A stretch of 64,000 nt of DNA, from NCBI GenBank assembly GCA_015231755.1, contig JADGAZ010000003.1:62001-126000 (forward strand), written 5' to 3'. Positions within the stretch are counted from its first letter, which is position 1. The number at the start of each line of letters is the position of its first letter. The notes beneath the pieces are model-generated. The model searched no databases, was not told the origin of the DNA, and saw only the letters and a program-made list of their open reading frames with translations. The position numbers and the translations under genes are program-made. Below, one piece after another: positions 9,576-38,932 of the stretch. Source of the DNA: Magnetococcales bacterium. Its GTDB lineage: Bacteria; Pseudomonadota; Magnetococcia; Magnetococcales; Magnetaquicoccaceae.

Positions 9576-12500
9576 TCAGCAGGCCTTGGCCAACCGGGCC
9601 CGTCTCCAACCCCGGATGCCGAACGGAACCGCGATCAGCAGAGCCAGGAGAGCCATCGTCATGGACATGGTGCCGTGCAGCAGCAACCAGCTCATGCCGA
9701 TCAAAGGCAGGAGAAGAACACGAACCACGGCCTTCCAGGTGTCATGCTCCCGCAACCAATCCGCCGCAGCCGGGCTGTGGGCATAATATTGCTCCACAAA
9801 CCAGGATCCCGCTTCATTGGTCAGGAGATACTCATCCCGGAACTCCCGCAGCAGCTTGACATAAGGTGCCTCATAGGAGCCATAAGCCGCCGTGGCGATA
9901 AAGCAGCCACCACCACCACTCTTCGTCGCAGCCGTCGTGGTCTCCGAAACACTCGGCACCACCACCGAGAAGTGAGGCATGTTGACCTTGACCGTATTGG
10001 TTGACGAGTCAAAAGTGGCCCCGGAGATGGTGGTGACATTCTTGTTGTCCAGGAAGTCCTGGAGCGTCGGCGCGGTATAGACCACGATTCTGCTGTTGAT
10101 GGTCGTGACATCCATGGTGGTCAGTCCAACCTTGGTCAACAAGGTGCTCAAGTTGACAGGAATGGAGACCGGAATGCCCACACTGCTGTTGATGGTGGTG
10201 TTGCCGCTGGAGGTGGAGAGCTGGGTTCCATTGGAATCAAAGGCCACCAGATCGATTTCCACCACCTCACCGCCTGTGATCGCGGCGCGGTTGTAAGCGG
10301 TTGTGGTGCTGGCATTGGTTGAAGACAGCTTGGCGCCACGAGCCGTGACGTAAACCTGCCCAACATCCGTGGCGCTGAAGGCATCCAGCGGCACCGTGAC
10401 CTTGACCGCGCCGACCGTGGTCAATTTGGAACTCAGATCGATCGACGTGGCATCCGTGGTGCCGACCGAAATGGGCTGCACGGCTGCGGTGACGATATCC
10501 GAAGCCTGCAAAGCAGACGGCGTGGTGTGGGTCACCTGGGTGGTGACCGCAGTCTGAATGGCGGTACTGGCGGTACTCAGGCTGGTGGGAGCCGCCGCGA
10601 GGGTCAGGGTGGAGAAGGTGCCCTTCCACACATTACCCGTCACCGCGATACAAGTGGCTTGGGTGGTCAGGGTGGTTTGGGCCACATCACTGCTGTTGAC
10701 ACAAGAGGTCGTGGCTTCGCTCACCGCTTTCTTGACCGCGAGACCACCCGTCGCCGACACATAAAGATTGACCGGAGTGAAGACCGAAGTATCGACCCAC
10801 ACGGTAAAGGTGGTGCCGACAATCGATCCTTCCACCTTGTTACCGCTGGCATCCACCGCCGTGACGGTCGCCGCGAGGCTCGCGCTGTTGACCAGGGTGC
10901 CGGTGTACTTCATCGGCGTCCCGATTTTGCGCAACGTGACGGTGCCGGAGGTGGTCCCACTGGCCAGCGTGATACTACCGGTCTGATGCGTGGTCAGATT
11001 GGCCGGAACCACGTTGAAGGTATAAGTACCACCCACAGGCAGGGAAACCGAGGTTTTGCCGTTGGCGTCCGTGGCGCTGATGGTGATGGCGCTGCCCATG
11101 GTCGTCTCGACTTCGCTCTTGCTGCGCAAGGTGACCACGGCACCCGACATGGCCGTGCCGCTGCTGTCGCTGACGGTCAGAGCATAGGTGGTCACCGGAA
11201 GGATCGAAACCGCATTCGAGGTTACGGTGGCCCAACTGTTGGTGGAATCGGCGTTATTGGTTTGCAGCACCGCCTTCACCTTGAAGAGGGTCACCGCGGT
11301 CAAGGTGCTCTTGGGTACGATGTAACCCATGGCCGGATTGGTTCCGGTGCCGGTAACCGCCGTGGCCGTCAACGTCGCACTTCCGGTGCTGCTGGAAGCC
11401 GTGGAGCTGAGTCCGGCAATCGCGCCATTGGCATCCGCCGTACCCGCGCCATCCAGCATGGTGAGTTTGAAGATGTCACCCGCTGCGCCACCGGTCACGG
11501 TGATCAGTTGGGTGGTGTCCGTACCCAGGATCGTGGACTTGGAGGCCGTGACCTTGTAAGGCACGTTGACGGTCATGGTCTTGGTCAGCCCAGCCGTGGT
11601 ATCGGTCACGGTCACGGTGTAGACCCCGGCAAAGGCTCCGGTGGTGGGAGGATTGAAGGTGTAGACCCCATTGGTGGCAGTCAAGGTGGCACTGTAGCTG
11701 CCCGGACCGGTGGCTGCGACCGCATAGTTGGTCGAACCGCCTGTCAGGGTGAAGGTCAGGCCACTGCCGCCACTGGTGGCAATCTGGCTGGTGGTGATTT
11801 CAGACGGCGTGGTCGCGGTATCCTTGATGGCAATCGGACCCATCACCACCACCACCAGTTTCTGGGTGATATTGGTGTAAGCCGTGCTGGTCAGGGTGAT
11901 CTCCGTGGTGCCCGCAGCCTGAGCCGTGACCACACCGTCGCTGGAAACCGTCGCCGCCGCGGTGTTGGACGAGCTGTAGGTATAGCTGGTGGTCTTGCCG
12001 CCGGTTGCGGTGATGGTGTAGCTCTTGTTGGTGCTGGTATCGAGATAAACCTTGCCATCGGTGTTCTTGGCAGAGGTCACCGTGATCGGATGCACCACTT
12101 CGACCGCAGCCGTAGTGCTGCTGTTGGTGGTCTTGCTGGTGCCTTGGTAGGTGGCGGTATCCTGAACCATGATGGTGAAGGATCCGGTGGCCACCGTGGT
12201 GACGGTGCAGGTGCTGCTGGTGGCCGTTGCGGTCACCGTGGCAACCGCAGGCGCGCTGCTGGTGCAGGTGTAGTTGCCATTGCCGCCATTGATGATCAGC
12301 GTCATGGTCTGTCCCAGAACCGCAGCCGTGGCCGTGGTCCAGGAGGTGCCCACCGGGGTATACACCGTGACGTTGACCGCCGAGGTCACCGGCGTGCCGC
12401 CGATGGAATCGGAGGCTGTGACCGTATCCGTGGTGGAAGCGGCAACCGAACCGGCGGTGTAGGTGACGGCGGTACCGGTGGTCCCGCTCAGGGTGCCGGC

Positions 12501-15167
12501 GGTGGTGCTGGTCTTGGTCCAGGCCGTGGCCGCAGAGCCACCGGTCACGGTCAAGTTGGTGGTGTCACCGGCAACCAGGTTGACGGCGCTGACGTTCACC
12601 GAGAAGGGCACCAAGGCCAAGGTCACATCCGTGACCATGCTCTTGGTAATGGTTCCGGTGGAGGCATCAATCAGAATGTTGTGGGTGGCCGTATCCGTCA
12701 AAGGCATCAGGACGGTGGTCACGGTGGTGGTGGCCACGCCATTGACCGGCGTCACCGTTTTGGTAAGGGTGCCACTCGTTCCGAGGTAGCCATAAGTGGC
12801 AGCATCCAGAACAAAGGTGACATCGCTGGTGGCAGCCGTCGCGGTATTGCCATACTGATCCTTCAGGGTACCGGTCAAGGTCACCTGGGAGGAGGAGTAG
12901 GAACTGACCTTGGTGCTGCTCAGGCCCAAAGAGAGTTGCGATGCGGTTCCGGCAGTACCGGTGGCGGTGAAGGTAGCCGGGGTCGTGACGCCGGTAACCG
13001 CGGCGGTCACGCTGTTGGCACCCGCCGTGGTACCCAGGGTCAAGGTGGTGCTGGCCAGACCGTTGGCATCGGTGGTGCCGGTAGCGGCACTCACGCTGCC
13101 ACCGCCGCTGGCCACCGCGAAGGTCACCGTGGCATTGGAGACGACATTGTTGTTGGCATCCTTGACGACCACCGTGAACGGCGTGGTCAACGCGGATCCA
13201 ACCGTTCCGCTCTGGGCGTCACCGGCACTCTTGGTGACGCTGGCAGCGGCACCGGCGGTGGCGGTCAGGGTGAAGGTCTGAGAAGAGTAACCCGTGGCCG
13301 TAACCGTCACCGTGTAGGTTCCCGCGGTGGTACCCAGGGTCAGGGCCGAAGAGGTGGCCACGCCTTGAGCGTTGGTGGTGGCTTTGGTGGTGGTCGTGCC
13401 GTTGGCGAAGGTGCCGCCGGACGTGGTGAAGGTCACTTCCACACCCGCGCTGGGGGTGGTCCCGGTGGTCAGGGTGACACTCAAAGGATTGGTCACCGCG
13501 GTTCCGACCGTGGCGGTCTGGCTGTTGCCGGAGGTCTGGCTCATCGCGTTGAAGACCAACGACACCGTCAGATCGGCCACGCTGGTGGCCGCGATCGTAT
13601 CGGTGGAGGCATCCACCACGATATTGAGGCTGGAGGATCCGCCTGCGGGCTGGGCAATGGTGGTCAGGGTGGTCGTGGCGACACCATTGACCGTGGTGAC
13701 GGTGGCGGTACCAATCGAGCCATACGTGGTGGCATTCGTGGTGAAGGTGACCGACTTGGCAGGAGAGATCACCGTATTGCCATACTGATCCTTCAAGGTA
13801 CCGGTCAGGACCACCTGATTGGCAACCGTGGCGCTCACGGTAGTGGCGGCAGCGCCCAGAACCAACTGGGAAGCGGTGCCGGCGGTGCCGGTGGCGTTGA
13901 AGGTGGCCGGAGTCGCAGCACCGGTCACCGAGGCGGTGACACTGTTGGCGCCCACGATCGTACCCAGGGTCAACGTGGTGCTGGCCTGACCTTGAGCGTT
14001 GGTGGTAGCGGTGGCGGGATTGACGCTGCCGCCGCCAGTGGCCACTGCGAAGTTCACCGTGGCATTGGAAACGACATTATTGTTGGCATCCTTGACCGTG
14101 ACCGTGAAGGGCGCGGCCAAAGCGGTTCCGACCATGGCGGTCTGATCGGTGCCTGCGCTGGAAACGATGCTGGCAGCGGCACCGGCAGTACCGGTCAGGG
14201 TAAAGGTCTGGGAGGTATAACCCGTGGCAGAAGCGGTGACGGTATACGCGCCCACCGTGGTGCCCAGGGTAAGAGCGGGGGCGGTGGCAATACCGTTGGC
14301 ATCCGAAACCGCCGTGGCCGTGGGACCCGTGGCGAAGGTGGCACCACCCGCGGCGGTGAAGGTCACGGTCACACCGGCGTTGGGGGTGGTTCCGGTGGCC
14401 AGGGTAACACCCAGGGCCGTTCCCACCGCGGAACCGGCAACCGCGCTTTGGTTGTTACCCGCAGTCACGCTCATGGAGGGCGCGCTCACAGCAAGGGTCT
14501 TGGTGCCTTGGGTGTAAGAGGCGGGGGTGGAGCCCTTGTTGTCCGACACGGCGATGAACTTGGCCTTGACCGCCGAATTGCCCGCCGTCGCACCACTCTT
14601 CACCAACAATTTCAGCGTGAAGAACTGATAATTGCTGATCACCGCTCCGGACTGATTGAACGAAGCCGTGCGGGTATAGTTGATATAGGCACGATTCGCG
14701 GTCCCGAACATCGAATCCCCGGAGACATCCTGATCGGAGATGCGCAGTTCCATCACGTCCGTATCACCCGTGGTCTTCCAAAGCTGGGTGATGCGGTTGT
14801 TCTGGTCGTTCTGCTTTTGTCCAAACTGACCGTCCAGATAGGGTGTTTTATGGGGATCGTTATCCCCGGCGGTCCCCAGAGCGGAGGAGGCATCCAGAGC
14901 GAAAACGCTCTTGTCCCACTCGACCACGATGCCCGCCGAACTGATGGCGGTCGCCCCGGCATCGGCTGCGGAAACGGCAACCGTCACATCCACAGTCGCT
15001 CCGACGGCCACCGTATCGGCACTGCTGGTCACCAGCAGGGAGCCACCCGTGGCAGCCCAGACTTGACCACTGGTCAAAATCAATACAGTCATGGCTAACC
15101 ACCGAAGCGTGGCGGCCAATCGGCTGCCCGACTCCTTCCTTACACCCTGAAACGGCCATGTAATCAT
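9576..15167 (-). CDS. Large secreted protein: cohesin-like domain, Big/Ig-like repeats, CFI-box C-terminal anchor
   Basis: 1863 residues from ATG 15167 (GAGGTG upstream; a GTG three codons earlier sits too close to that site). A signal peptide (LRWLAMTVLILTSGQVWA) is followed by a cohesin-like beta domain (~45-225; begins SLLVTSSADTVAVGATVDVT). Two tandem ~310-residue units (~234-543, ~544-856) each hold three bacterial Ig-like domains with motifs such as VKDANNNVVSNATV and LTGTLKDQYGNT. More Ig-like and a transthyretin-like domain (~1330-1425) follow. The C-terminus has GGGGCFIATAAYGS (~1755), the CFI-box signature, then a hydrophobic helix and an Arg-rich tail, which suggests anchoring or sorting at the cell envelope. 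No enzyme motif is visible. It is probably a surface or matrix protein; its position next to gspC suggests T2SS export (inference). Confidence 0.88.
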   Translation of the reverse strand: MITWPFQGVRKESGSRLAATLRWLAMTVLILTSGQVWAATGGSLLVTSSADTVAVGATVDVTVAVSAADAGATAISSAGIVVEWDKSVFALDASSALGTAGDNDPHKTPYLDGQFGQKQNDQNNRITQLWKTTGDTDVMELRISDQDVSGDSMFGTANRAYINYTRTASFNQSGAVISNYQFFTLKLLVKSGATAGNSAVKAKFIAVSDNKGSTPASYTQGTKTLAVSAPSMSVTAGNNQSAVAGSAVGTALGVTLATGTTPNAGVTVTFTAAGGATFATGPTATAVSDANGIATAPALTLGTTVGAYTVTASATGYTSQTFTLTGTAGAAASIVSSAGTDQTAMVGTALAAPFTVTVKDANNNVVSNATVNFAVATGGGSVNPATATTNAQGQASTTLTLGTIVGANSVTASVTGAATPATFNATGTAGTASQLVLGAAATTVSATVANQVVLTGTLKDQYGNTVISPAKSVTFTTNATTYGSIGTATVTTVNGVATTTLTTIAQPAGGSSSLNIVVDASTDTIAATSVADLTVSLVFNAMSQTSGNSQTATVGTAVTNPLSVTLTTGTTPSAGVEVTFTTSGGTFANGTTTTKATTNAQGVATSSALTLGTTAGTYTVTVTATGYSSQTFTLTATAGAAASVTKSAGDAQSGTVGSALTTPFTVVVKDANNNVVSNATVTFAVASGGGSVSAATGTTDANGLASTTLTLGTTAGANSVTAAVTGVTTPATFTATGTAGTASQLSLGLSSTKVSSYSSSQVTLTGTLKDQYGNTATAATSDVTFVLDAATYGYLGTSGTLTKTVTPVNGVATTTVTTVLMPLTDTATHNILIDASTGTITKSMVTDVTLALVPFSVNVSAVNLVAGDTTNLTVTGGSAATAWTKTSTTAGTLSGTTGTAVTYTAGSVAASTTDTVTASDSIGGTPVTSAVNVTVYTPVGTSWTTATAAVLGQTMTLIINGGNGNYTCTSSAPAVATVTATATSSTCTVTTVATGSFTIMVQDTATYQGTSKTTNSSTTAAVEVVHPITVTSAKNTDGKVYLDTSTNKSYTITATGGKTTSYTYSSSNTAAATVSSDGVVTAQAAGTTEITLTSTAYTNITQKLVVVVMGPIAIKDTATTPSEITTSQIATSGGSGLTFTLTGGSTNYAVAATGPGSYSATLTATNGVYTFNPPTTGAFAGVYTVTVTDTTAGLTKTMTVNVPYKVTASKSTILGTDTTQLITVTGGAAGDIFKLTMLDGAGTADANGAIAGLSSTASSSTGSATLTATAVTGTGTNPAMGYIVPKSTLTAVTLFKVKAVLQTNNADSTNSWATVTSNAVSILPVTTYALTVSDSSGTAMSGAVVTLRSKSEVETTMGSAITISATDANGKTSVSLPVGGTYTFNVVPANLTTHQTGSITLASGTTSGTVTLRKIGTPMKYTGTLVNSASLAATVTAVDASGNKVEGSIVGTTFTVWVDTSVFTPVNLYVSATGGLAVKKAVSEATTSCVNSSDVAQTTLTTQATCIAVTGNVWKGTFSTLTLAAAPTSLSTASTAIQTAVTTQVTHTTPSALQASDIVTAAVQPISVGTTDATSIDLSSKLTTVGAVKVTVPLDAFSATDVGQVYVTARGAKLSSTNASTTTAYNRAAITGGEVVEIDLVAFDSNGTQLSTSSGNTTINSSVGIPVSIPVNLSTLLTKVGLTTMDVTTINSRIVVYTAPTLQDFLDNKNVTTISGATFDSSTNTVKVNMPHFSVVVPSVSETTTAATKSGGGGCFIATAAYGSYEAPYVKLLREFRDEYLLTNEAGSWFVEQYYAHSPAAADWLREHDTWKAVVRVLLLPLIGMSWLLLHGTMSMTMALLALLIAVPFGIRGWRRARLAKAC
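12610..14477 (-). repeat. Two tandem ~0.93-kb coding repeats (310-residue units)
   Basis: Inside the large Big-domain gene, residues ~234-543 and ~544-856 are two consecutive copies of the same three-domain unit. Each runs in the same order: a first domain with LATGTTP/LTTGTTP, a second with VVKDANNNVVSNAT, a third with LTGTLKDQYGN. Many short segments are identical between the units, so a tandem duplication built this part. Boundaries are approximate. Confidence 0.7.
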
Positions 15168-15331: not shown

Positions 15332-16195
15332 TTATTTCAAGGCGTCAATGGTTGAAATCACCGTGGTATTGGTCTGTCCGGTTGGCAATACCACGCCAGT
15401 ATCGATGGTGGAACCGGCATTCAAACGACGCAGGATCAAAACTCCGTCGCTGGCACTGACTCCTTTATCCTTGTCCACATCCAGACTCAAACCTGCCGCA
15501 TCGATCATGGCAATCACCGAGGCATTGGTCCGCCCCTCCCCCAGCACCACGCCGGTATCGATGGTGGAGGCTCCATTCAGCCGACGCAGGATCAACACAC
15601 CATCCGTGGCATCCACCGTACCGCTCTGATCCACATCCAAAACGGCAAAAGCGGAATCGGTGCTGTACAACAAGGCACGCCCCGCGGTCAGAGTATAACC
15701 GTTCGCCATGCCACTGGCGGTCAAACGAACCGTTGTGCGACCCGTCACCCCTTCAGCCACCTTGAAACGGACCGTGAACAAATTGACAGGCCAGGAAGAT
15801 CCAACACCCGGCCAGTTGCCATCGAGGGAGACCCAGGCCAGACCCACCCTTTTATCCGTGGCCCCATCGCCATCCCCGTCATCAACATCGTCTACCGGTA
15901 GCGTGTCCTGTCCGATCAGGGCCAGTCTCTTCTCTCCGCCAAGATTTTCCCCGGAGTGCAAAAGATCCGAGAAACCATCAAAGGTCAACCGGCTGGAGTC
16001 GTAATGAATCCGCAATCCCAATCCAGTCGTCTGGGATTCCGTGGGATTGGTGGTGGCATACCCGACGGTCACACTCACGGTTTCCCCGGACGCGATGTGC
16101 TGAGTGGTCACCTTGGGGGCAACCACCTGTTCCCTGGCCCAGAGATCCGAAACAAACCAGGGAAACAACAACGCCAGGAACAGCAATCGCGTCAT
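15332..16195 (-). CDS. Small secreted protein with cohesin-like domain and two dockerin-like EF-hand modules
   Basis: 287 residues from ATG 16195, which opens a signal peptide (MTRLLFLALLFPWFVSDLWA). Residues ~22-180 resemble a cohesin beta-sandwich (HIASGETVSVTVGYATTNPT, LGLRIHYDSSRLTFDGF). They contain an Asp-rich loop (VDDVDDGDGDGATD) that could bind calcium. The C-terminus has two ~50-residue dockerin-like repeats. Each starts with an EF-hand-like calcium loop (LDVDQSGTVDATDGVLILRR; LDVDKDKGVSASDGVLILRR) and continues into TIDTGVVL...G.TN..V...IDA. Cohesin and dockerin partners normally bind each other with calcium in extracellular assemblies. Having both in one small protein suggests an adaptor or self-assembling link. 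No catalytic domain is present. Family names rest on motif recognition; cohesin is less certain than dockerin. Confidence 0.82.
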   Translation of the reverse strand: MTRLLFLALLFPWFVSDLWAREQVVAPKVTTQHIASGETVSVTVGYATTNPTESQTTGLGLRIHYDSSRLTFDGFSDLLHSGENLGGEKRLALIGQDTLPVDDVDDGDGDGATDKRVGLAWVSLDGNWPGVGSSWPVNLFTVRFKVAEGVTGRTTVRLTASGMANGYTLTAGRALLYSTDSAFAVLDVDQSGTVDATDGVLILRRLNGASTIDTGVVLGEGRTNASVIAMIDAAGLSLDVDKDKGVSASDGVLILRRLNAGSTIDTGVVLPTGQTNTTVISTIDALK

Positions 16196-16259: not shown

Positions 16260-18812
16260 CTATTTGAGCGCATCAATGGTGGCCTTCACCGTATCGTTCG
16301 TCTGACCCGAGGGCAGAACCACACCGGTATTGATGGTGGACCCCCCGTTCAGACGCCGCAGGATCAACACACCATCCGTGGCATCCACCGTTCCACTCTT
16401 GTCCACATCAAACACCATCCCGGCGGTATCGATGGTGGTCTTCACCGTATCATTGGTCTGACCCGAGGGTAAAACCACACCGGTATTGATGGTGGAACCG
16501 CCATTCAAACGCCGCAGGATCAATACACCATCCGTGGCATCCGTGGTGCCGCTCTTGTCCACATCCAGCGTGACGAGGTTGGTGCCGCCACTAAAGGTGA
16601 TGGTGACCGTCGAAGCGGCGCTGTTCTGCTTGCCATCGTTGACCAACAGGCTGAAGGTGTAGGTCCCGTTCACGGTCGGCGTGAAAGTCGGCTTCTGGGC
16701 CGTGGTGGAGGACAACACGATATTGGACCCGCCCGGCTGGCTGACAATCGACCAGGTGTAGCTCAAGGAGGTATCCGACGCGTCCACATCGGCACCGGAT
16801 CCATTCAGGGTCACGGCACCCGCCGTGCTCACGGTTTGGGCCGATCCGGCATTGGCGGTGGGGGCGTTGTTGACCGTCACGGTCACGGTGGACGGTGTGG
16901 CGCTGGAATGCAGTCCATCGCTCACAGTCAGACTGAAGACCAGCGAACCCACGGTACTCGGGGCCGTGAAGGTCGGTTTGGCGGCGGTGCTGGAAGAAAG
17001 GGTGACCGAACTGCCGAAAGTCTGACTCCAGGCATAGGTCAGATTGGTGCCCGCATCGGCATCCGAAGAGCCGGAACCATCCAGGGTCACGACCGCTCCG
17101 GGTGCCACCACCTGGGCGCTGCCGGCCTTGGCCACCGGACGGGTGTTGACCGTGATGGTCACGGTGGCGCTGTTGGTGCTGTTCTGGGTTCCATCGTTCA
17201 CCACCAGACTGAACACATAGGAACCGGAAACGGTCGGGGTGAAGGTCGGCTTCGAGGCCGAGGTGGACGACAGGGTCACCACCGACGTGGCGGGACTGGT
17301 CTGGGTCCAGGTGTAGGTCAACGCATCGCTATCCGTATCCTGTGAACCGGTACCATCCAGGGTGACGACACTGCCGGCTGCCACCGTCTGCGCCGAACCG
17401 GCATTGGCGACCGGTGCGTTGTTGGCGGTCACGGTGACACTCTTGGCGGCAGAGGCCACCTTGCCATCGTTGACCACCAGAGCGACCACATACTTACCCT
17501 TCACATCCGGCGTGAACGACGCGGACGGAGGCGAACTCTGGGTGATGAAACTCGAAGCGGTTCCAGCGGTCCCGGTGGCCAAAGACGATCCGGTGGGTTT
17601 GCTGGTCAGAGTCCAGATGTAGGAGGTGAGAGTGTCGCCATCCTGATCCGAGGATTTTGAACCGTTCAAGGTCACGGCACTGCCCGGGGCCACCGTGACA
17701 TCACTGCCCGGATCGGCCACGGGAGCATTGTTGGTGCCGGCCGCCGCATTCACGGTCAGAGTCATGGTGGCCGCGGAACTGTTCTCGAAGCCATCGTTGA
17801 CCACCAGGGAGAAGGTGTACGAACCCGCGGTCTTGACCACCACCGTCTGGGCACTGCCAGTCAAGGTGGAGTTGGCCGACAGCGTGGACGAACCCGAGGT
17901 GATGACCGCACTGGTGGGCATACTGGTCAAAGTCCAGGTATACGTCGAGAGGGTATCCCCATCCGCATCGGTGGAGGTGGCCCCCGTCAGCGAAACCGAA
18001 GCCTGACCGCTGCTCAAGGTCACGGTTTGATTGCCTCCCGTGGCGGCAGTCGGCGCGGTATTGGTGGAGGTATACTTGCTCACCGCCGAAGCCGTCTTGG
18101 ACCAGGGGGTGGGATTGATCACCTTGACATCATAAATCCCCGGAGCCGTGCTGGCCGGCACTGTGGCCGTCAACTGACTGGAGCTGACAAAAGTCACGTT
18201 GGTCAAGGCGACATCCGACAAGGTGACGGTGGAACCACTGACCGTCCGTTTGCCGTTGACCAGTTGAATCGTGGCTCCGCTCATGAAATTGGTGCCATTG
18301 AGGGTCACGTTCACTGCGGATTTATGGGATCCAGAGGCCGGAGAAACCGGGGACGTGGCATCCAACGTGGGCGCGCTGTTCAGAACATAGGGACCGACCT
18401 TGGTAATGGCAGTGGCTCCAACCAATCCTCCGCTATCCGAGGCGCGAATGAAAAAATAATAGCTGCCATCCGCCAGGGAACTGGCCGTCACCGTGGTGCT
18501 GTTGCTCAGGCTGCCACGCTTCAAGGTGGTGGACTCCGCCGTGGACAGGCGCGTCTCGAAGGTGGTGGTGTCCAAAGCGGTATCGGTGCTGACCACATAT
18601 TCGTAAGTAATCGACGAACCGGAAATTCCGGAAGTGGCGGCTGTCCAGGAAAAAACAATACTGCTGTTGGTCGAGGAGACCGACGCGGTATGACTCGTGC
18701 TGGCGACCCCATTCACCGCACTGCCGCTGGTAATGGCCGCACCCGCGCTCAGGGCCGATACAACCCATACCATCACGGCCAAGAATACCTGAATTGCGTG
18801 ATTACGTTTCAT
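16260..18812 (-). CDS. Secreted IPT/TIG and PKD-repeat protein with C-terminal dockerin-like modules
   Basis: 850 residues from ATG 18812, preceded by AGGA seven bases upstream; a longer frame starts at 18839 without a better signal. A signal peptide (AIQVFLAVMVWVVSALSAGA) leads into a fibronectin-like region and an IPT/TIG domain (~170-245, VTLNGTNFMSGATIQLVNGK). Five PKD-type domains follow, each opening with N.AP.A..G and DGSGS/STDADGD signatures. The last ~100 residues are two dockerin-like repeats (LDVDKSGTTDATDGVLILRR and FDVDKSGTVDATDGVLILRR, each followed by INTGVVLPSGQTNDTV). These are almost identical in protein and DNA to the modules of the neighbouring 287-residue protein. No enzyme domain was seen. 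PKD proteins are usually surface, adhesive or matrix components. Confidence 0.86.
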   Translation of the reverse strand: MKRNHAIQVFLAVMVWVVSALSAGAAITSGSAVNGVASTSHTASVSSTNSSIVFSWTAATSGISGSSITYEYVVSTDTALDTTTFETRLSTAESTTLKRGSLSNSTTVTASSLADGSYYFFIRASDSGGLVGATAITKVGPYVLNSAPTLDATSPVSPASGSHKSAVNVTLNGTNFMSGATIQLVNGKRTVSGSTVTLSDVALTNVTFVSSSQLTATVPASTAPGIYDVKVINPTPWSKTASAVSKYTSTNTAPTAATGGNQTVTLSSGQASVSLTGATSTDADGDTLSTYTWTLTSMPTSAVITSGSSTLSANSTLTGSAQTVVVKTAGSYTFSLVVNDGFENSSAATMTLTVNAAAGTNNAPVADPGSDVTVAPGSAVTLNGSKSSDQDGDTLTSYIWTLTSKPTGSSLATGTAGTASSFITQSSPPSASFTPDVKGKYVVALVVNDGKVASAAKSVTVTANNAPVANAGSAQTVAAGSVVTLDGTGSQDTDSDALTYTWTQTSPATSVVTLSSTSASKPTFTPTVSGSYVFSLVVNDGTQNSTNSATVTITVNTRPVAKAGSAQVVAPGAVVTLDGSGSSDADAGTNLTYAWSQTFGSSVTLSSSTAAKPTFTAPSTVGSLVFSLTVSDGLHSSATPSTVTVTVNNAPTANAGSAQTVSTAGAVTLNGSGADVDASDTSLSYTWSIVSQPGGSNIVLSSTTAQKPTFTPTVNGTYTFSLLVNDGKQNSAASTVTITFSGGTNLVTLDVDKSGTTDATDGVLILRRLNGGSTINTGVVLPSGQTNDTVKTTIDTAGMVFDVDKSGTVDATDGVLILRRLNGGSTINTGVVLPSGQTNDTVKATIDALK

Positions 18813-18839
18813 GGTAACATCCTGATTTTTATGGAACAT

Positions 18840-29477: not shown

Positions 29478-29551
29478 GCACTCCCCTCCCTCCGGGAGAA
29501 AAACCATTGGAAAGATCACATCTTGCGGGGTGATGCATCCAGGCTCGATTC

Positions 29552-29622: not shown

Positions 29623-30375
29623 CTACATGGCGCTCAGGGTAAAATCCAAGCCCACCCGCAACCCTTTGGCCGTAGCCTGACCCTTGGGGGATTCGGCGAA
29701 ATAGGCTCCCGGAATCTCGAAAGAACGTGTGGATTTGTTCCAATCGATGACGGCACTGGTAATTTTTTGATGCGCGAACGGATTTTCCAGGATGGCCTGA
29801 CTGAAGCGAATGCGACCGGAACCCTGGCCCACCACAGCGGATGCGGCTTGCAAACGCAGCGTCACCGCCTGATCCATCCACAACTCCAGGGTCAGCGGGG
29901 CAAGCACCAACTGGGTCACCCGTGACCAGAAAGAAAATACCCCCGTTTGTCCTCCCCCATCGTGACGGGGAAGAATGCCTTGGATCATGCCGCCGACCTC
30001 CTCCTCAAGGGAGTCTGGTAACGACTGTGCATCCGCACGGTAACGATACAGGCGCAGATGCACATCCTTGAAAATCGCTTCTTGAACCGCCTTGCTCTGA
30101 AAGGCCAGAAAACGGCGCCGTTGAATGGTGAACTCCCGGGCCGCAAAAGATTTGACCGGTCGGCCATCCCGCAGTTCCGTAAAAACCGGCCCACCCACCG
30201 CATACCGGGAAAACGCATCCTGGATGGTCGCGTCAGCAGCCTGTTCCGACACGCCGGAAATCTGATAATCCCGCAGCACCAAAAACACCACGCCGCCAAG
30301 ACACCCCACCAGGAGAAACTTCAACCCCATCAGGCCCAGGAACCGCCAGGACTGGATGCCCACTCTCCCGATCAT
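29623..30375 (-). CDS. Single-pass membrane protein, LptC-like in outline
   Basis: 250 residues from ATG 30375 (AGGG upstream); the open frame runs 34 codons further upstream without a good start signal. One N-terminal membrane helix (LKFLLVGCLGGVVFLVLRDY, ~18-37) is followed by a beta-rich periplasmic region with repeated short strands (FAAREFTIQRRRFLAFQSKA, VHLRLYRYRADA, ALDLEL-like stretches). A single anchor plus a beta-strand periplasmic domain recalls LptC and related beta-taco proteins, but the resemblance is weak and I do not assign function. It sits between the two giant secreted-protein genes on the same strand. Confidence 0.65.
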   Translation of the reverse strand: MIGRVGIQSWRFLGLMGLKFLLVGCLGGVVFLVLRDYQISGVSEQAADATIQDAFSRYAVGGPVFTELRDGRPVKSFAAREFTIQRRRFLAFQSKAVQEAIFKDVHLRLYRYRADAQSLPDSLEEEVGGMIQGILPRHDGGGQTGVFSFWSRVTQLVLAPLTLELWMDQAVTLRLQAASAVVGQGSGRIRFSQAILENPFAHQKITSAVIDWNKSTRSFEIPGAYFAESPKGQATAKGLRVGLDFTLSAM

Positions 30376-30443
30376 CGTGAAAGCCCTGTCATCCTGGAAT
30401 TCTGGCACCCTTGGACAAACACGAAAAAATCTCACAGAAGTTC

Positions 30444-30507
30444 CCCGCACGTCCTTTTGGTTGCCTGTCGTTTGCATTCAACAGAAAACAACCCAAGGAC
30501 GTGCGGG
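30444..30507 (-). terminator. Long hairpin after the 2803-residue gene
   Basis: CCCGCACGTCCTT (30444-30456) pairs perfectly with AAGGACGTGCGGG (30495-30507). The ~38-base loop contains further short pairing (GGTTG with CAACC). It starts 14 bases past the giant gene stop on the minus strand, and a T-rich stretch (ATTTTTTCG) follows about 20 bases beyond the stem. It is probably a transcript end or a 3' stabilising structure. A 16-base palindrome (30507-30522) overlaps the stop codon. Confidence 0.5.
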
Positions 30508-30520
30508 ATCCATCGATGGA

Positions 30521-33500
30521 TCAGTTCAATCCCAGATCCAATGCCGCCCCTGCGCTGGTGGCGGTGACACTTCCCGTGGCATAACCACTGGTCACGCTCC
30601 AATCCGCGTTCTTGACCTTGGTGGCGCTGAACGCTTTCACCGTATAGCTCTGGTTCGGCTCCAGACCCTCCAGCTTGTACACCCCGGTCGTCCCATTGGC
30701 GACCGCACGGTCCTTCTCCACGCCACTGGCGTCATACGCGATCACCATCGCACCACCTGCCGCGCTGCCGCCGCTGGTCACCGTGCCCTGAACGATCCCC
30801 GCCGCCTTGACCACCGTCAACGTCACGCCGGTCTGGTTCGCCCCGTTCACCGTCACGTCCGTGCCCGCCGTCCCTTCCAGCGTCCACACGTCCACCTTGT
30901 AGGTCGCGTTCGACAAACCCTTGATCGTGAACTCTCCCTTGGTGTTGGTCACCGCGCCGCCACCCATGGAATTGCCAGACGACCAAGCGTTCACCCATGC
31001 CCCGCTCACCGCGTTGCCGCCACTCGTCACCGTGCCCTTGATCGCGTAACCCGTCAACATGGCCACGTTCAAGCCGGTGGTATTGCCGTTGATCGACACC
31101 GTTCCCACATCGTTCCAGCCGCTTGTCCAGCTCGACGCCGTCACCTTGTTGTCGCTCACCGTCACACTCTTGGTCCGCTGCGACACATACCCGCTCGAAC
31201 TCACCTCCACCGTATAATTACCCGCCGGCAATCCCTCCAGCGTGTAGTTCGCATTCCCGGTCACACTCGTCCGGGATCCCCCCGTCGACGACCAAGCGTT
31301 GATCTCCACCACCTGATCCGCCGCCAAGCCGCTCACCGTTCCCGACAGCGTGTAGAATAGATTGCCCGCCGCCGTCAGATTGAAGTCGATTCCCTTCGTC
31401 GCTCCCGCGTTGACCACACTCACCTTGCTGTGATTATCCCACACCGGCGTCACGCCACCCGTGGCGTAAAACACCCCTTGATAACCACGCCACACACCCA
31501 CCACGTAGTCGGTTCCATCCGGCACGCCGCTCAACGTATAGGCCGCCGATCCGTTGGCATCCGCGGTCGCTCCCCCCACCACGAACGCGTCCGTGGCCGG
31601 CGACCACACATCCACCCGTACCCACTCCTGGGCCTTCAGACCCGTGATGGTTCCGGCAATGCTGCCTCCCGTCGAAGCCGTGAAATCCACTCCCGTCACG
31701 TCCCCGCCGCTGGTGTTCACATCCGACTTCTTCTGCGTCATATACCCGTCCGCGCTGAAGGTCACCTTGAAGTCCGTTGCCGAACCCACACCGGCGATCG
31801 TGTACGCATCCGCACCCGATCCCGCAGCCTGCACCGCGTTTCCGCCCCAGGAATAGGTGCTGTTGGACCAGGCATCCACCCAGCCCCATTGCGCCTTCTT
31901 CATGCCGTTCACCGTACCGGCGATCGACTTGCCGGACGACACCACCAGATCGATCGTCGCGTCACCACTGGTCACATTCACCAGCTCCGCGCTCTCCCAG
32001 GCTCCCGGCGCCTTGCCGTTGCCGGCATACGTGCCACCCTGAATCTGGCCACCCCAGATGGAAATCCGGTAATCCTCCGCCGCTTCCAGACCCTTGATCT
32101 CCACCTGATCGCTGGTACCGTTTCCATACGACACCTCTCCACCGCCCCACGACCACGTCGTCTCCGAGAAGGCATCTACCCACGCTTTCTGACCGCTCTT
32201 CAGGCCAGACACCTTCACCGTCACCTTGCGGCCACTGCCCACCTGCATGGACACATAATGATCGCTCGACATGTCCAGCAGCGTCGCCCGATCCCAGCCC
32301 ACCAGACTCCCGAGCGTGGCCGGATAGTCGCTGGCACCCACCTCTCCTTTGAAGTTGCCCGTCTTGAAGCCCCCATCCGGACCACCCACGAACAACCGGT
32401 AATCCTTCCCGCTGGCATCCAGACCCTTCAGTTCAATCAGCGCCTGACCAGTGCTGTCCGCCGTCCCCTGCTTCCAGCGACCCGCGCTCAACTCTTCCGA
32501 CCAGACGTTGGCATCCACCTTCGCACCGGCGACCAGACCCGTCACCTTCACCTTCAAGGTCTTCGAGGTCACCGCCGCCAAATCCACCGCCACACCCGTC
32601 ACGTTGCCGTTCAAGGTGCTCAACAGCGTCGCCTTCTCCCAACTCTTCGGACCCGACGCCCCTCCCCCGGCCACACCGCCATAATATCCCGACGGCACAT
32701 CCTCCACGTCCGATTGCCAATCCAAACGATAGTCTCCCGCCTGGGCCAGACCCGATACCTCAAAGCTCACCGCTCCGCTTCCGGTCCCCACCACTTCGGT
32801 CCCGCCCCAGACCCGTTCGCTCTCCGACCACACGTTCACACGCACCTTCGTATCCTTGCCAAGACCCGCGATCGTGCCGCTGATCTTCGCTCCCGCGTTC
32901 ATCAAAAAGTCCACGTTCTCCGGACTCTTGCTCCCCGAAGCGTCGATCAGCGTCGCTTCATCCTCTTTGCCCGCGTTCTTGTAATAGGTGGTGCGATACA
33001 AACCGCTCCAACCCCAGACCACACCCACATAGTTGTTGGCCGGCGCCACCGTCACTCGGTAATTGCCGTTTTCGTCCGTGTTGGCTCCGTACCAACGGCT
33101 TCCGTCCTGACTGTGAATGTCCACCCAAGTCCAGGCCAGACCGTTGTTGCTCCCGTCCGTCACACGGCCAGAAATGGTGTTGCCGGTGCTCAGGGTGAAA
33201 TTGACCGGCACACTGCCCCGCTCATCTCCCAGAATCAATTCACCAGCCTTGGGACGATACATCCCGGTGGTGTCATCCACGGCATGGGAGGTGTCGATGG
33301 CATAGACGCCGACCACACCCTGAGCCTGAACCTTCACCAGCTTCGCTTCCGGAGCCAGATACCCCTCTTTCCAGAGGCTGACTTCATACCACACCGTGAC
33401 GCCCTCAGCCGGAGTCGCCACCCGGATGGCATATTCCCCACTGCCCCCGGTGGCCGCACCACCGCCGACGCCACTTTCGTGGGACCAAGCGTTGACCCAG

Positions 33501-36500
33501 ACATCACCAACCCCGCCGGAGCCATTGTCAACCGTTCCGGAAATGGTCACCCCGCGGCTCGCCTGCACCAGCAAGCCGGTCACGCCATTGCCCAGATTGG
33601 TGAAAGGCCAAGCCACCCCGGAAGCCAGATCCGAACCGAACGCCGCAGCCTGGGCGGCATCGCTGCTCAAGCGACACACACCCGCCGTGTCGCAGGACAC
33701 CACGCCACCCATAAAATCCCCGCTTGGCACCCAGGCATGGGTTTCGGGATCCTCGTATCCTCCCGGCTGCACATTCACCGAGAAGGTGGCGCGAGCCTTG
33801 GTGGCCACACTGGCCGAGGGCAGATTCAAGGTGAAATAACCATACTGATCCGTGGGTCCATCGCCAAAATCACTGCTGACCCAGGCGTGGGCGATGCCAT
33901 TGTTGTCACCATCCACCACCCGTCCTTGCACCTGAACCCCGCCATCCACCATCACCGCGATGGTCAAGGATTGATCCATGCGCAGGGTGGTCACCACATG
34001 GTCATCGGATTGATCCATCACCGAACCGGGGATGGGATCCGTGGTGCCCACACCACTGGCCACCACCACAGGCCGGGTGGACACATCCTCGCTCTGCCAA
34101 CCGGTCACCCAGGAGGCATCCGGCGGCGTCACCCAGTTGCCACCCAGGAAGGGCACGAAACCCTCGCCGCAACCCGCCGTCGCATCGGTATTGCCCGGTT
34201 CGCAATAGGCCGGCCACACCTGCACCCGATATTCCAGACCCGGCTTCACGTTGATGGCGAAATTACCCTGTTCGTCCACCTTGCCGTGGAAGGCCGTGGT
34301 CCAATCCCGGGTGTGAACATAAACCAGCGCCCCCTTGGCCAGCGTGCCATCCCCCAGAGCCACGCTCCCGGAAAGGGTCATGCCGGCGGGCAGACGGGTA
34401 TTGATTTCGGTGGCCGCCCCGACCCTGAACAGCTTGGCACTGGTCCAATCCGAAGCGACGCCCCCCTGGCCATCGGCAAAACCACCCACCAGATGGCCGG
34501 GCAGGGTTTTCTGCTCCTGGGTATCCCACTTCCAATAAGAGGTCAAAAATTCGACCCGATACTTGCCGGGCACCGCCGTGAAGCTGTAATGCCCCATGGA
34601 ATCGGTGTAAGTCTCGGCCCAGGTTCCGGAACCGCCGGACTCCGCATCCCACTCCGGTTGCAGACGTACCAGCACATCGGCCAAAGCCGTCTCCCCATCG
34701 GAGGCGGTAACCATGCCTTGGATGGTCAATCCGGTCGAAAGGCGCCCATGCACCTCGGCTTCGTTGGTAAAGGTGTAAATCTTGGCCTCGGACGCCTCAC
34801 CCGACAGGGTATGTTCCGCCGCATCGGTGCTGTAGCCCCCCAGACCGGACAATTTGACCTGTTTCTGGGTCTGCCAGTCCCAATAGTTGGTGTTGAAATA
34901 GACCCGATAGGCCGCACCCGGCTGCACGAAAACCACATATTGACCCGCCGCATCCGTGATGGATTCCATCCACGGGCCATTCGGAGCGCCCTCCTGTGCC
35001 GCATCCGGCTGGAACTCCACCTTGACTCCCTGGACAGGCTGTCCGGCGGCATTGGTCACGGTTCCGGAAACACGCGTGCCACTGGGCAGTTGGGCATTGA
35101 CCTGATCATCCGTGGCGAACGTGAAGAGATAAATCGCCTCTTGCGTCTCGGTGACCTGACCATTGCCATCCGAGAACCCGCCGTCACCCAGCACACCGGG
35201 CACGGTGACCATATGGCCCGCGCCGTTGTCCCAATAGACCGCACGGAACATCACACGATACAGGCCCGGAAGGATGGAGGCCGAATAGTTGCCCTGGGCA
35301 TCGGTCTTGACCGAAACCATATCCACGGATCCGGTGTTTTGTTCCCAGTCGGGTTGGAATTCCACCAAGATATTGGACAAGGCACCCGCGCCACCGCTCA
35401 CATGGCCGGTGATGGTGATTCTGGGCAGATTGGGATCCCCGCCTCCGGAACCCGACTCCTTGGTCAAAGCGACCATCAGGTTGAGGGAAGCCGCTCCGGT
35501 TCCACCCAGCAGATAGTTCTGGGCCGCGCCGGCGCCACCCAAGGTCACGGTGGTGCCTTGGCCGCTAGCCAGACCGCCGACATAACCCCGGGCAAAAAAC
35601 TCGATCCGATAGGAACCGGCCTCGACCGAAAGGTTGTAATACCCCATGGCGTCGGTGACCGCCTCGAAGACACGGGTGGCATCCGCCTGACTCACGGCCC
35701 GCACCGTGGCTCCGGGAACCGGGATCACGGTGGTGGCATTGTTTTCGGTCACCTTGCCCACGATGGGATAGGTCTGAACACCCATGGCATCGATCAGGGT
35801 GGCGTTCAGGGTCATGTTGCCATGGACCGTCAGGGGGGACTGGGCATTCCGGTCCGCCACCACATTGCCGAAGGCATCGACAAAACCCCGATACAGCATA
35901 CTGTTGCCTCGGGCCACGAACTCGATCCGGAACTCCTCGTGCAACGGCAACGACACGGAGAAATCACCCCCGGTGCCGGTGGTGGTCTGAGCGAAAAAGC
36001 CCGTGGGATTGGGAGAGCGCACCAGCACCGTGACCGGACCGCTGATGCGGGCCGTGGTCGCGTCGGTGACCGTCCCCGAAAGGGTGGCGGTGGTGATCTG
36101 GAACTCGGGCGTGAGTTTGACCTCTCCGATGAGCAGGTCGGAAAAGACATGTTGCCCGACCCCCTGGGTGGGAGACAGCAGATTGGTCGCGCCGATGGCG
36201 GTCAGATAGCCCTGGGCGACAAAACCGCTGCCCGTGTGACGAAACACAAAAACATAGGCGCCGGCGGGAAGATCCAGGGTGAAGGCACCGGTCTCGTCGG
36301 TATGGAACAGATAGGGTTCGCCTCCCCCGACGGGATAGGCGAGGATTTCGGCATTGGCCAGCCCCTGGAGGCCATTGGTCAGTTTACCGGTCACCCGGTT
36401 GTGACCAGGAGCCACATCCCGGCCCACCACCAGTTTTACCTCGGTGACGGCGTCGGCCAAGGGGAACGGCAGCCCCTGCATGCCCGAGTTGGGGGCGATC

Positions 36501-38932
36501 ACATTGACCAGTCCCACCGGAATGGTGGCATCATACCAACCACCGATGAAGTCACCGGGATTTTTGGGCCAGATCTCCACGCAACGCTGGCCGGGGGCCA
36601 GGGTGAAGGTGGCCTGACCTTGCGCAGAGAGTTCCTGATACTGAGCCAGGGGGAAGGCGCACAGGCCATTTTGCACCGGAGCGACACGCACCCCGGTATT
36701 GGCGATGATGGTGCCAGAGCCATCCTTGACCGTGAACGTGACAGGCCGACCCAGATGATCGTTGGTCAAAACCAGCACCGCCGGATTGGGCAGGGTGGAC
36801 ACATCCACATCCACCGCCACCTGACGCTCATATCCCTTGGCCCCGTGGGTCAAACGCACCACCCGGGTGGAATCGGACTCCAGGTCGTTGGCCCGGTCAT
36901 ACACGGTCAACAAGGCGCTGTTGCCATTGGGGGTTTCGTTGTAAAAACCGGTGGTTTCGTGGACGTGGGGAGAGGCGGCGAAAGATCCCTGGCTGTGTTC
37001 CACCCGCGTCTGGACAAACGGATGTTCCAAGATGGTACCCGCGGGGGCATCGATGCGAAACTGTCTGGCCACAATCGTCTGCCCGGTCACGGAGATCAGG
37101 CCATTGCCCTTGTCCAGGGCCATCAAGGCACCCACCGACCGGCCATCGCCTTCGTTCCAACGTTCAAACACAATGCCCAGCCCGTTGGCCAGAAAAATGT
37201 CCCCCCCTCCGCTCTCGGGGGGATTGGTCCCGGAACGGAAACGGGTTTCCGTCACATGCAGGCGAATCACGCCGGTCAACCGGTTCAACACGCCGCCATC
37301 GGTGATGGCGTCCCGCCACTCCAGAAACCGGGGATCATCCTGCAATCCCTCCGGGGGGTGTTCCGCCAGCAGGTCCACCGCGCCGGCAACCGTCACATCC
37401 TGTTTCACCACGGTCCAATGCCCGTCAATGGGCTGACCCGCGGCATCCAGCTCGTATTCGATCCGGGTGGTGGTGGCGGTGTGGCCATCCACAACCGTGG
37501 GAGGCAGCATGGGCACCGGCGGGGTCAGGTTCGACAGAGCCACATGCTCCGGCAGAATCTCCACGGCCCCCGGATCCAGCACCGGGGGATTCACGAAGCC
37601 GTAAAAGGCCTTGTGACGCACCCCTTCCTTCTGCCCATCGAACCCTTTTTCGCCATGAAAAGTCAAACCTTTATCATCGATGGTATAGATCATCCCCTCG
37701 TCACCCGCCAGCGTCGAAAGGGTGCCACGATCCAGGAAAGAGACGCTTGCCCCGCTCCTCGACCAACGATAACCATCGTTGGCCCATCCTCCGGCGTTGT
37801 CGGATTGCCAATGCTCCTGGGTCACACGGGTCACACCGGGGGTGAAGATCCAATCGGCGATGGGATATTCGGTGCTGGCGCCGGGTTGAACCCCCGCCAC
37901 GCAGGAGACGATAGCCGCGGCGGAGCCATTGGCATCGGTGACCGTGACTGTGGCCTGACCCGGGGCCTCGCACAGAATCCGCGTGACACCACCAGCGTTA
38001 CTCATGGAAACCACACCGGTTTCCGGGGAGGTGCTGACCGAAGGCGTGCCGGTGACATGATCCATGTGGAGCAGTCGGGATTGCCCCACGGTGAGATTCA
38101 TCGGGAGGACCGACAGGGTGGCATCCGGATTGGGGGTGACCCCGGCGCGGGTCAGGGTGACGGTGTTGGAACCGGTGCACACCTGTCCTGCGGTGTTGTT
38201 GACCCAATGCATGGCGCCATTGCCGGAATCGGCGTTGATCAAAAGAAAATGAGTGTAGGAAAATGCGGTTTGCGTACCGGTCTGGATGGAGGCCACCGTG
38301 TGCATGGCTCCATCGATATCCCCGGTGAGATGGGGAGAGTCATTGAAAGAAATCAAGAAGGTATTACCCGCCTGCACAATCGCGGCCTGGAGGGTTTTGG
38401 CCGGAGCCGGAAGACACGCCGGGTTGGACAAGGTGGTATCCAGCTGATCCGCGCTCACCTGGACATTCCAGGAACCGCTGACATCGAAAATTGCGTCGAT
38501 GGCCCGGTTGACCGTCACGGTGCCGGAGGCCGAACAGGTTCCCCCCTGCCCATCGGACCAGGATGAAGTGGCTGTTCCGGTTCCGGAATCGCCGCTGGCC
38601 AGGATGAGGGAGACCGTGCTGGTGCTGCCGTTGGCCCGGGTAATCTGATAGGCATAGGTTTCGCCGTTGATCGTCCCGGATCCCTGGGCGCCGCCCAGTT
38701 CGGTCAGGGTGAAGGTGTCATCGCTTTGGGCCAGGGTGGCCACAAAGCGCTCGGGGGGAATGGGCAGACACAAGTTTGATGGCGGTGTCGCGGGGGAAGT
38801 GGGCGCAAACGCGACCATCCACCGTCCCGTGGCATCATACGTGGCGGCTTGCGCCACCTCGGCGGGTACCAGCAGACCCAACACGGCGAAAAGCAACAAC
38901 CAGATCCCCACGAGGTTTCGTTTTTCGAGCAT
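30521..38932 (-). CDS. Giant secreted protein E, paralogue of D (2803 aa)
   Basis: Starts at ATG 38932 with GGGGATGG upstream. The signal peptide is IWLLLFAVLGLLVPAEVAQA. The first ~350 residues hold two related beta domains not found in D (ATYDATGRWMVAFAP and IDAIFDVSGSWNVQVSA, each with Cys pairs) and an Ig-like segment. From ~354 (YPIADWIFTPGVTRVTQEHW) to the end it follows protein D. A middle conserved region (GLTFHGEK, LANGLGIVFE) is followed from ~845 by carboxypeptidase-regulatory/CnaB-like repeats. Residues 1911-2796 are identical to residues 2232-3117 of D, while the flanking parts are clearly diverged, so this tail was recently copied or converted. The last residues differ (LDLGLN against LDLSLNVTN). 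Likely role: extracellular matrix or fibre subunit. Confidence 0.88.
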   Translation of the reverse strand: MLEKRNLVGIWLLLFAVLGLLVPAEVAQAATYDATGRWMVAFAPTSPATPPSNLCLPIPPERFVATLAQSDDTFTLTELGGAQGSGTINGETYAYQITRANGSTSTVSLILASGDSGTGTATSSWSDGQGGTCSASGTVTVNRAIDAIFDVSGSWNVQVSADQLDTTLSNPACLPAPAKTLQAAIVQAGNTFLISFNDSPHLTGDIDGAMHTVASIQTGTQTAFSYTHFLLINADSGNGAMHWVNNTAGQVCTGSNTVTLTRAGVTPNPDATLSVLPMNLTVGQSRLLHMDHVTGTPSVSTSPETGVVSMSNAGGVTRILCEAPGQATVTVTDANGSAAAIVSCVAGVQPGASTEYPIADWIFTPGVTRVTQEHWQSDNAGGWANDGYRWSRSGASVSFLDRGTLSTLAGDEGMIYTIDDKGLTFHGEKGFDGQKEGVRHKAFYGFVNPPVLDPGAVEILPEHVALSNLTPPVPMLPPTVVDGHTATTTRIEYELDAAGQPIDGHWTVVKQDVTVAGAVDLLAEHPPEGLQDDPRFLEWRDAITDGGVLNRLTGVIRLHVTETRFRSGTNPPESGGGDIFLANGLGIVFERWNEGDGRSVGALMALDKGNGLISVTGQTIVARQFRIDAPAGTILEHPFVQTRVEHSQGSFAASPHVHETTGFYNETPNGNSALLTVYDRANDLESDSTRVVRLTHGAKGYERQVAVDVDVSTLPNPAVLVLTNDHLGRPVTFTVKDGSGTIIANTGVRVAPVQNGLCAFPLAQYQELSAQGQATFTLAPGQRCVEIWPKNPGDFIGGWYDATIPVGLVNVIAPNSGMQGLPFPLADAVTEVKLVVGRDVAPGHNRVTGKLTNGLQGLANAEILAYPVGGGEPYLFHTDETGAFTLDLPAGAYVFVFRHTGSGFVAQGYLTAIGATNLLSPTQGVGQHVFSDLLIGEVKLTPEFQITTATLSGTVTDATTARISGPVTVLVRSPNPTGFFAQTTTGTGGDFSVSLPLHEEFRIEFVARGNSMLYRGFVDAFGNVVADRNAQSPLTVHGNMTLNATLIDAMGVQTYPIVGKVTENNATTVIPVPGATVRAVSQADATRVFEAVTDAMGYYNLSVEAGSYRIEFFARGYVGGLASGQGTTVTLGGAGAAQNYLLGGTGAASLNLMVALTKESGSGGGDPNLPRITITGHVSGGAGALSNILVEFQPDWEQNTGSVDMVSVKTDAQGNYSASILPGLYRVMFRAVYWDNGAGHMVTVPGVLGDGGFSDGNGQVTETQEAIYLFTFATDDQVNAQLPSGTRVSGTVTNAAGQPVQGVKVEFQPDAAQEGAPNGPWMESITDAAGQYVVFVQPGAAYRVYFNTNYWDWQTQKQVKLSGLGGYSTDAAEHTLSGEASEAKIYTFTNEAEVHGRLSTGLTIQGMVTASDGETALADVLVRLQPEWDAESGGSGTWAETYTDSMGHYSFTAVPGKYRVEFLTSYWKWDTQEQKTLPGHLVGGFADGQGGVASDWTSAKLFRVGAATEINTRLPAGMTLSGSVALGDGTLAKGALVYVHTRDWTTAFHGKVDEQGNFAINVKPGLEYRVQVWPAYCEPGNTDATAGCGEGFVPFLGGNWVTPPDASWVTGWQSEDVSTRPVVVASGVGTTDPIPGSVMDQSDDHVVTTLRMDQSLTIAVMVDGGVQVQGRVVDGDNNGIAHAWVSSDFGDGPTDQYGYFTLNLPSASVATKARATFSVNVQPGGYEDPETHAWVPSGDFMGGVVSCDTAGVCRLSSDAAQAAAFGSDLASGVAWPFTNLGNGVTGLLVQASRGVTISGTVDNGSGGVGDVWVNAWSHESGVGGGAATGGSGEYAIRVATPAEGVTVWYEVSLWKEGYLAPEAKLVKVQAQGVVGVYAIDTSHAVDDTTGMYRPKAGELILGDERGSVPVNFTLSTGNTISGRVTDGSNNGLAWTWVDIHSQDGSRWYGANTDENGNYRVTVAPANNYVGVVWGWSGLYRTTYYKNAGKEDEATLIDASGSKSPENVDFLMNAGAKISGTIAGLGKDTKVRVNVWSESERVWGGTEVVGTGSGAVSFEVSGLAQAGDYRLDWQSDVEDVPSGYYGGVAGGGASGPKSWEKATLLSTLNGNVTGVAVDLAAVTSKTLKVKVTGLVAGAKVDANVWSEELSAGRWKQGTADSTGQALIELKGLDASGKDYRLFVGGPDGGFKTGNFKGEVGASDYPATLGSLVGWDRATLLDMSSDHYVSMQVGSGRKVTVKVSGLKSGQKAWVDAFSETTWSWGGGEVSYGNGTSDQVEIKGLEAAEDYRISIWGGQIQGGTYAGNGKAPGAWESAELVNVTSGDATIDLVVSSGKSIAGTVNGMKKAQWGWVDAWSNSTYSWGGNAVQAAGSGADAYTIAGVGSATDFKVTFSADGYMTQKKSDVNTSGGDVTGVDFTASTGGSIAGTITGLKAQEWVRVDVWSPATDAFVVGGATADANGSAAYTLSGVPDGTDYVVGVWRGYQGVFYATGGVTPVWDNHSKVSVVNAGATKGIDFNLTAAGNLFYTLSGTVSGLAADQVVEINAWSSTGGSRTSVTGNANYTLEGLPAGNYTVEVSSSGYVSQRTKSVTVSDNKVTASSWTSGWNDVGTVSINGNTTGLNVAMLTGYAIKGTVTSGGNAVSGAWVNAWSSGNSMGGGAVTNTKGEFTIKGLSNATYKVDVWTLEGTAGTDVTVNGANQTGVTLTVVKAAGIVQGTVTSGGSAAGGAMVIAYDASGVEKDRAVANGTTGVYKLEGLEPNQSYTVKAFSATKVKNADWSVTSGYATGSVTATSAGAALDLGLN
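30546..33202 (-). repeat. 2657-bp direct repeat, copy 2 (3' part of giant gene E)
   Basis: Second copy of the block at 18968-21624, same orientation, constant offset of 11,578 bases. The edges fall at g30546 and t33202. Outside it the two genes are homologous only at protein level. Confidence 0.93.

Follow-up and report, generated by a model that had tools for sequence, protein, structure and literature searches.

Gene content of the block

The stretch of DNA that we analysed (the window, 64,000 nucleotides, C3:62001-126000) lies in the genome of a Magnetococcales bacterium (G000; 3.84 Mb in 44 contigs). On its minus strand, we found a block of genes in the order giant 1, 284-aa protein, 380-aa protein, giant 2, 859-aa protein with PKD repeats and dockerin-like modules, 287-aa protein, 1863-aa protein, the type II secretion system (T2SS) genes gspC-D-E-F and a TPR protein; all window coordinates below are on this strand. 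No intergenic gap within the block exceeds 166 bp, so the gene set reads as one operon. A promoter and terminator scan from 28000 to 40000 found a number of sites not above that in shuffled sequences. The original prediction, made from the letters of the window, had named five exported proteins upstream of gspC-D-E-F on one strand. All five genes are present as described; the list missed two further genes of the block, those of the 380-aa and 284-aa proteins.

The 1863-aa protein (9576..15167) is our candidate anchor. It has a signal peptide, a cohesin-fold domain at residues ~40-230 (by AlphaFold2 model and fold search), a stalk of Big_1/Invasin_D3 Ig domains, a CFI-box-CTERM at residues 1755-1823 and a hydrophobic tail; by profile match, it holds the only CFI box of the genome. 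The DNA of the modelled cohesin domain (14454..15050) has counterparts in 6 of the 48 genomes of the order that we compared, this one included. The 287-aa protein (15332..16195), our candidate adaptor, has a signal peptide, a cohesin-fold domain and paired dockerin-like modules, and it has orthologues in G006, G005 and G009. Counted from its TTG start, the open reading frame is 314 aa long, with the cohesin-fold domain at residues 48-205; a good signal peptide begins at Met28. The 859-aa protein (16260..18839) consists of PKD/Ig repeats with paired dockerin-like modules at the end, and its gene adjoins the anchor gene in G006, G005, G009, G002 and G030.

The two giants are giant 2 (3127 aa, 18934..28317), which has CarboxypepD_reg repeats and was followed by synteny, and giant 1 (2803 aa, 30521..38932), a paralogue of giant 2 by sequence comparison. 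Between them lie the gene of the 380-aa protein (28377..29519), which has a signal peptide, a weak STN/GspD-N0-like domain and a coiled coil, and that of the 284-aa protein (29623..30477), which has a single membrane segment, orthologues in G006 and G005 and no match to a known family. The 380-aa gene is conserved as far as G030 and stays beside the giants across families. At the other end of the block, the gene of the 306-aa TPR protein (2285..3205) is downstream of gspF also in G006 and G030.

Two domains with a predicted cohesin fold

When we searched the whole genome with PF00963, matches were limited to the domains of the 1863-aa and 287-aa proteins. Their scores of 19.6 and 11.9 bits (E 0.0017 and 0.5) are both below the curated cut-off of 24.1, and we therefore file the domains as cohesin-like by predicted fold, not as Pfam members. 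A PDB sequence search with the adaptor cohesin profile gave alanine racemase noise only, so the fold was tested instead, using AlphaFold2 models built from small in-lineage alignments. The anchor domain model has a mean pLDDT of 75.7 and a pTM of 0.77. The model of the 287-aa protein has a pLDDT of 72.3 and a pTM of 0.51, with the dockerin pair at 85-96 and the cohesin part at about 40-80.

For both models, cohesin structures rank first in the PDB (Foldseek 9.8e-6 and 1.3e-6). In VIA-align, the anchor domain reaches Z 12.7 (6kgf, 2vo8, 4fl4; rmsd 2.5, 131 aligned) and the domain of the 287-aa protein reaches Z 12.6 (4fl4; rmsd 3.0, 136 aligned), while pilin or antigen I/II (adhesin) Ig domains reach Z about 10.5-10.9, some 2 Z units under the cohesins. 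The cohesin-like domains that had been proposed for these two proteins are thus borne out by structure prediction, and the assignment of a cohesin jelly-roll fold to both is good, on models of medium confidence. The genome-wide PF00963 search found one cohesin in each of the two proteins and no scaffoldin with several cohesins; with one cohesin per scaffold, there is no classical multi-enzyme scaffold.

A paired dockerin-like tag on six otherwise unrelated proteins

Two proteins of the block had been predicted to end in paired dockerin-like calcium modules, and Dockerin_1 matches, loop residues and a module profile all agree with this. In hmmscan, where the Dockerin_1 cut-off is 22.9 bits, the two window pairs score 23.0 and 21.9, and across the whole genome PF00404 is above its curated cut-off at six places, with a seventh counted with its neighbours. 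The tag is built of 52-aa units, longer than cellulosomal dockerin units, with the consensus LDVDKSGxVDATDGVLILRRLNGxSTIxTGVVLPxGQTNxxVxxxIDxL. Among 12 modules, the calcium-loop residues are kept at D1 in 11, D3 in 12, D9 in 10 and D12 in 12, and position 5 is mostly S. Each of the two 12-residue loops is followed by a predicted helix (AlphaFold2, pair pLDDT 85-96), which is the layout of a type I dockerin.

When we searched the genome with a profile of the 52-aa module, we found 12 strong copies, with E values no higher than 4e-28; all are paired, and they are spread over six proteins that are otherwise unrelated. The next best match has E 0.09, and the size of this gap indicates that the six-protein set is not chance. 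In addition to the 859-aa PKD protein and the 287-aa cohesin protein of the window, tags are found on a 603-aa M10 matrixin (contig C20), an 852-aa S8 subtilase (C4), a 694-aa RCC1-repeat protein (C23) and a 1143-aa Lcl-domain protein whose pair is N-terminal (C13). Signal peptides are visible on most tagged proteins; none is visible on the RCC1 protein. None of the six is a cellulase or other plant-wall enzyme. The original statement that no enzyme domain is present is true within the block; genome-wide, however, the same tag is carried by M10 and S8 proteases.

The RCC1+dockerin open reading frame adjoins that of a calpain-like C2 + Calx-beta protein (1816 aa) immediately upstream (C23, positions 4978-12609 of locus L017). 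The G005 counterpart of the two is a single 2259-aa open reading frame, and the arrangement in G000 may be a split gene or a frameshift.

In the relatives, M10 proteins are tagged in G006, G005 and G009, S8 proteins in G006 and G005, trypsin S1 in G030 and, in G005, a calpain C2 fused with RCC1 as well as FGE-sulfatase-like proteins. G004 has an LTDG-type tag on M10 and FGE-sulfatase-like proteins. A second cohesin-like and dockerin-like protein with an LTDG-type module is found in G009 (C189, positions 2-2203 of locus L091), so there are at least two module types within the genus. A tag search of genome contigs gave matches in only two named Magnetococcales MAGs.

The tags of G000 share a mean identity of 74% among unrelated proteins (84%, for instance, when the M10 tag is compared with the PKD tag), above the 56-60% that they share with orthologous tags in G005 and G009. 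Within-genome identity exceeds orthologue identity with respect to the more distant G005 and G009 in G000 and G006, and does not do so in G005 or G009, which gives partial support to concerted evolution of the tag as judged by these identities.

The linked type II secretion system

By homology, gspC (8610..9569), gspD (6133..8613), gspE, the ATPase gene (4440..5966), and gspF (3202..4440) follow the anchor gene. The GspD secretin has an added C-terminal SPOR domain (residues 741-809), which might tie it to peptidoglycan. Just beyond the window, C3:52.9-58.7 kb holds gspG to gspN on its plus strand, so the T2SS is complete near the block; homologues were found for GspC, D, E, F, G, K, L and M. 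The same genome has another T2SS core (gspF, gspG-like pseudopilins, GspK) on contig C2, within C2:6000-25000. In tagged genomes, gspC identity is 38-87%, whereas it is no more than 24-28% in untagged genomes, two of which are of the same genus and nearly complete. Because C2 holds another core and untagged genomes have only this distant gspC, the linked T2SS appears to be a lineage-specific second system that was inherited together with the cohesin block.

Conservation and co-occurrence

The order giant, 380-aa gene, PKD+dockerin gene, adaptor, anchor and gspC-D is kept in G006, G005 and G009, where the compared stretch runs on into E-F-TPR in G006, stops within the anchor gene in G005 and, on a contig that begins within the giant, starts there in G009. 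In G002 and G030 the adaptor is missing, and the order is giant, 380-aa gene, PKD+dockerin gene, anchor and gspC-D; E-F-TPR is kept as well in G030, which is from a different family of the order. The original link between the exported proteins and the neighbouring T2SS is thus upheld by synteny in five other genomes.

Across the order, tags occur in 8 of 48 genomes, and the anchor cohesin is present in 6 of the 8 tagged genomes and in none of the 40 untagged ones (naive Fisher p 2e-6, which ignores relatedness and operon linkage). The co-occurring genomes are mostly of one genus plus one other family, with the genes in one operon, and are phylogenetically not independent. The two genomes with a tag and no anchor are G010 (a tag fragment; 84% complete) and G004 (divergent tags; 77% complete). 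A CFI-box tail is present once per genome in the same six anchor-cohesin genomes and in G028. The G028 protein has stalk and tail in common with the anchor, and a cohesin is not recognisable in it, so having the tail is not enough to define the system.

Giant repeat proteins

We sought cohesin and dockerin in both giants and found neither module. The prediction had counted the giants as part of the set, and this holds as far as they belong to the same operon; it is by operon position only that they are tied to the system. The 3' ends of the two genes form a 2,657-bp direct repeat that is 100% identical (18968..21624 in giant 2 and 30546..33202 in giant 1), equal to about 886 C-terminal residues of both proteins, and the sequence just before it is 55-70% identical. 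In G006, which differs from G000 by roughly 8% in the giant-end region, the boundary is at the same place, with 127 bp identical at the contig end and then divergence. The best fit to the identical ends would be repeated gene conversion, since a boundary in both G000 and G006 is not accounted for by an assembly collapse in just one of them.

Discussion

Our preferred explanation, to which we give a probability of roughly 0.55, is that the linked T2SS exports dockerin-tagged proteases and structural proteins, which are displayed on a cohesin anchored at the cell surface. The tagged proteins (M10, S8, the PKD stalk protein, the cohesin-bearing adaptor and others) would leave the cytoplasm via Sec and would then be exported by the adjacent second T2SS. 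The CFI-box C-terminal tail may hold the 1863-aa protein in the envelope, from where it would project its N-terminal cohesin on the Ig stalk at the cell surface. There, the cohesin would capture tagged proteins via their paired calcium-loop dockerins, presumably in a calcium-dependent manner, and the complex would be extended by the 287-aa protein, an adaptor with a cohesin and a dockerin pair of its own. The giants, encoded in the same operon, are probably exported along with these proteins as surface rods, and we infer that the system works in protein degradation.

The surface or matrix assembly that was originally proposed retains the cohesin fold and the dockerin pairs in its favour. A purely structural form of it, in which the 287-aa protein polymerises head to tail and forms a calcium-dependent coat with the PKD protein and the giants while the proteases share the module by descent only, would agree with the lack of enzymes among the block's own proteins and with the 287-aa protein and its orthologues, each of which combines cohesin and dockerin in one polypeptide. 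The loci of G002 and G030, however, have no 287-aa protein despite having tag and anchor, and tags on proteases are as similar as those on structural proteins, for instance in the comparison of the M10 and PKD tags. Because M10 and S8 proteases and, in relatives, S1 and C2 proteases carry tags, enzyme display fits better, and we consider a coat of this kind unlikely, slightly more so than a reading in which the linked T2SS mainly reads the paired module as a signal for export or sorting, or the module is a folding cap stabilised by calcium, and in which the cohesin-like domains are ordinary Ig-like domains for adhesion and are no partners of the module. That reading would explain why the tag goes with this gspC variant as well as with the cohesin across genomes and why the pair can be C-terminal, N-terminal or internal, and pilin and adhesin Ig domains are indeed close in fold; but cohesin is the top fold match for each domain independently, and a cohesin next to a dockerin-bearing gene is the standard pairing, which leaves it unlikely too. 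Far less probable is a reading in which the modules are left over from the widespread LTDG-type dockerin-like repeats and have no partner today, and in which the synteny is plain inheritance of a secretion operon. LTDG-type tagged proteins occur without an anchor cohesin in G004, and a restriction to one genus plus one other genome would be compatible with inheritance, yet the loops and helices of G000 are highly conserved across unrelated proteins, above the level of orthologous tags in G005 and G009.

The display of tagged proteases on an anchored cohesin can be compared with several known systems. The claim that this is not a usual cellulosome was correct: we rejected a cellulosome on the grounds that the tag is on no plant-wall enzyme; the PF00963 search gave no multi-cohesin scaffoldin either. 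With clostridial cellulosomes (types I and II), the system shares the predicted cohesin fold, the paired calcium-loop dockerin and the layout of anchor, adaptor and tagged enzyme; it differs in having no tagged cellulases, one cohesin per scaffold, a diderm host and a dockerin whose units have an extra helix and a spacing of about 52 aa. The non-cellulosomal cohesin of Archaeoglobus fulgidus (PDB 2xdh) matches both models (Z 11.6 and 11.0) and is likewise a cohesin outside cellulosomes, although an archaeal one, and to our knowledge no T2SS adjoins it. C-terminal sorting tails linked to T2SSs, such as GlyGly-CTERM with rhombosortase, resemble the CFI tail, here known by profile match, in being hydrophobic C-terminal tails on T2SS-associated surface proteins. 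In the literature that we searched, we found no processing enzyme for the CFI-box tail and nothing on Magnetococcales with dockerin or on CFI-box-CTERM.

Outside cellulosomes, cohesins and dockerins are widespread, and what they do there is described as unknown (PMC5244752). The planctosome of Nemodlikiaceae (Planctomycetes) is a cohesin-dockerin peptidase complex predicted from genomes only, and the part of its description on which we draw has a cohesin anchor, a dockerin+cohesin adaptor, dockerin-tagged peptidases (zinc ones there) and no cellulases (PMC6461901). The same layout of cohesin anchor, cohesin+dockerin adaptor and tagged peptidases was found here, in another phylum. In contrast to the lamin-tail-domain anchor and M12B/M14 peptidases there, the anchor here is of the CFI-box-CTERM type with no lamin-tail domain, and that part of the description mentions no linked T2SS (PMC6461901). 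Given the different anchor, we regard the system as one that would work like a planctosome and do not file it as one. In Ca. Stygibacter (Cloacimonadota), a cellulosome-like complex was also proposed from genomes only; there too, dockerins lie at the C-terminus of secreted enzymes, among them S8 (and in that case C25) peptidases, and the scaffold is on the cell's own surface, but that scaffold is a single large scaffoldin that combines tandem cohesins with CBMs and a C-terminal domain of secretion type, and the complex includes glycoside hydrolases as well (PMC8542988).

Similar peptidase complexes have therefore been proposed before, and the novelty here would lie, as read from the genomes, in a dedicated second T2SS to which the complex is coupled, in the CFI-box anchor, in the lineage and in the protease-rich tag set. 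A wider reading, which we hold tentatively and at somewhat less than even odds, is that a second T2SS has its whole cargo organised by cohesin-dockerin pairing, with machine, anchor, adaptor and proteases co-inherited as a unit, so that cells of a Gram-negative magnetotactic lineage would carry a tethered array of proteases. Partners, cargo and candidate export machine lie together in one conserved operon and are open to direct testing, and the anchor cohesin and the dockerin tag are a compact pair for binding assays. If true, this would mean that the plug-and-socket principle by which cellulose degraders put their enzymes together has, in magnetotactic bacteria, been joined to a secretion system dedicated to surface proteases.
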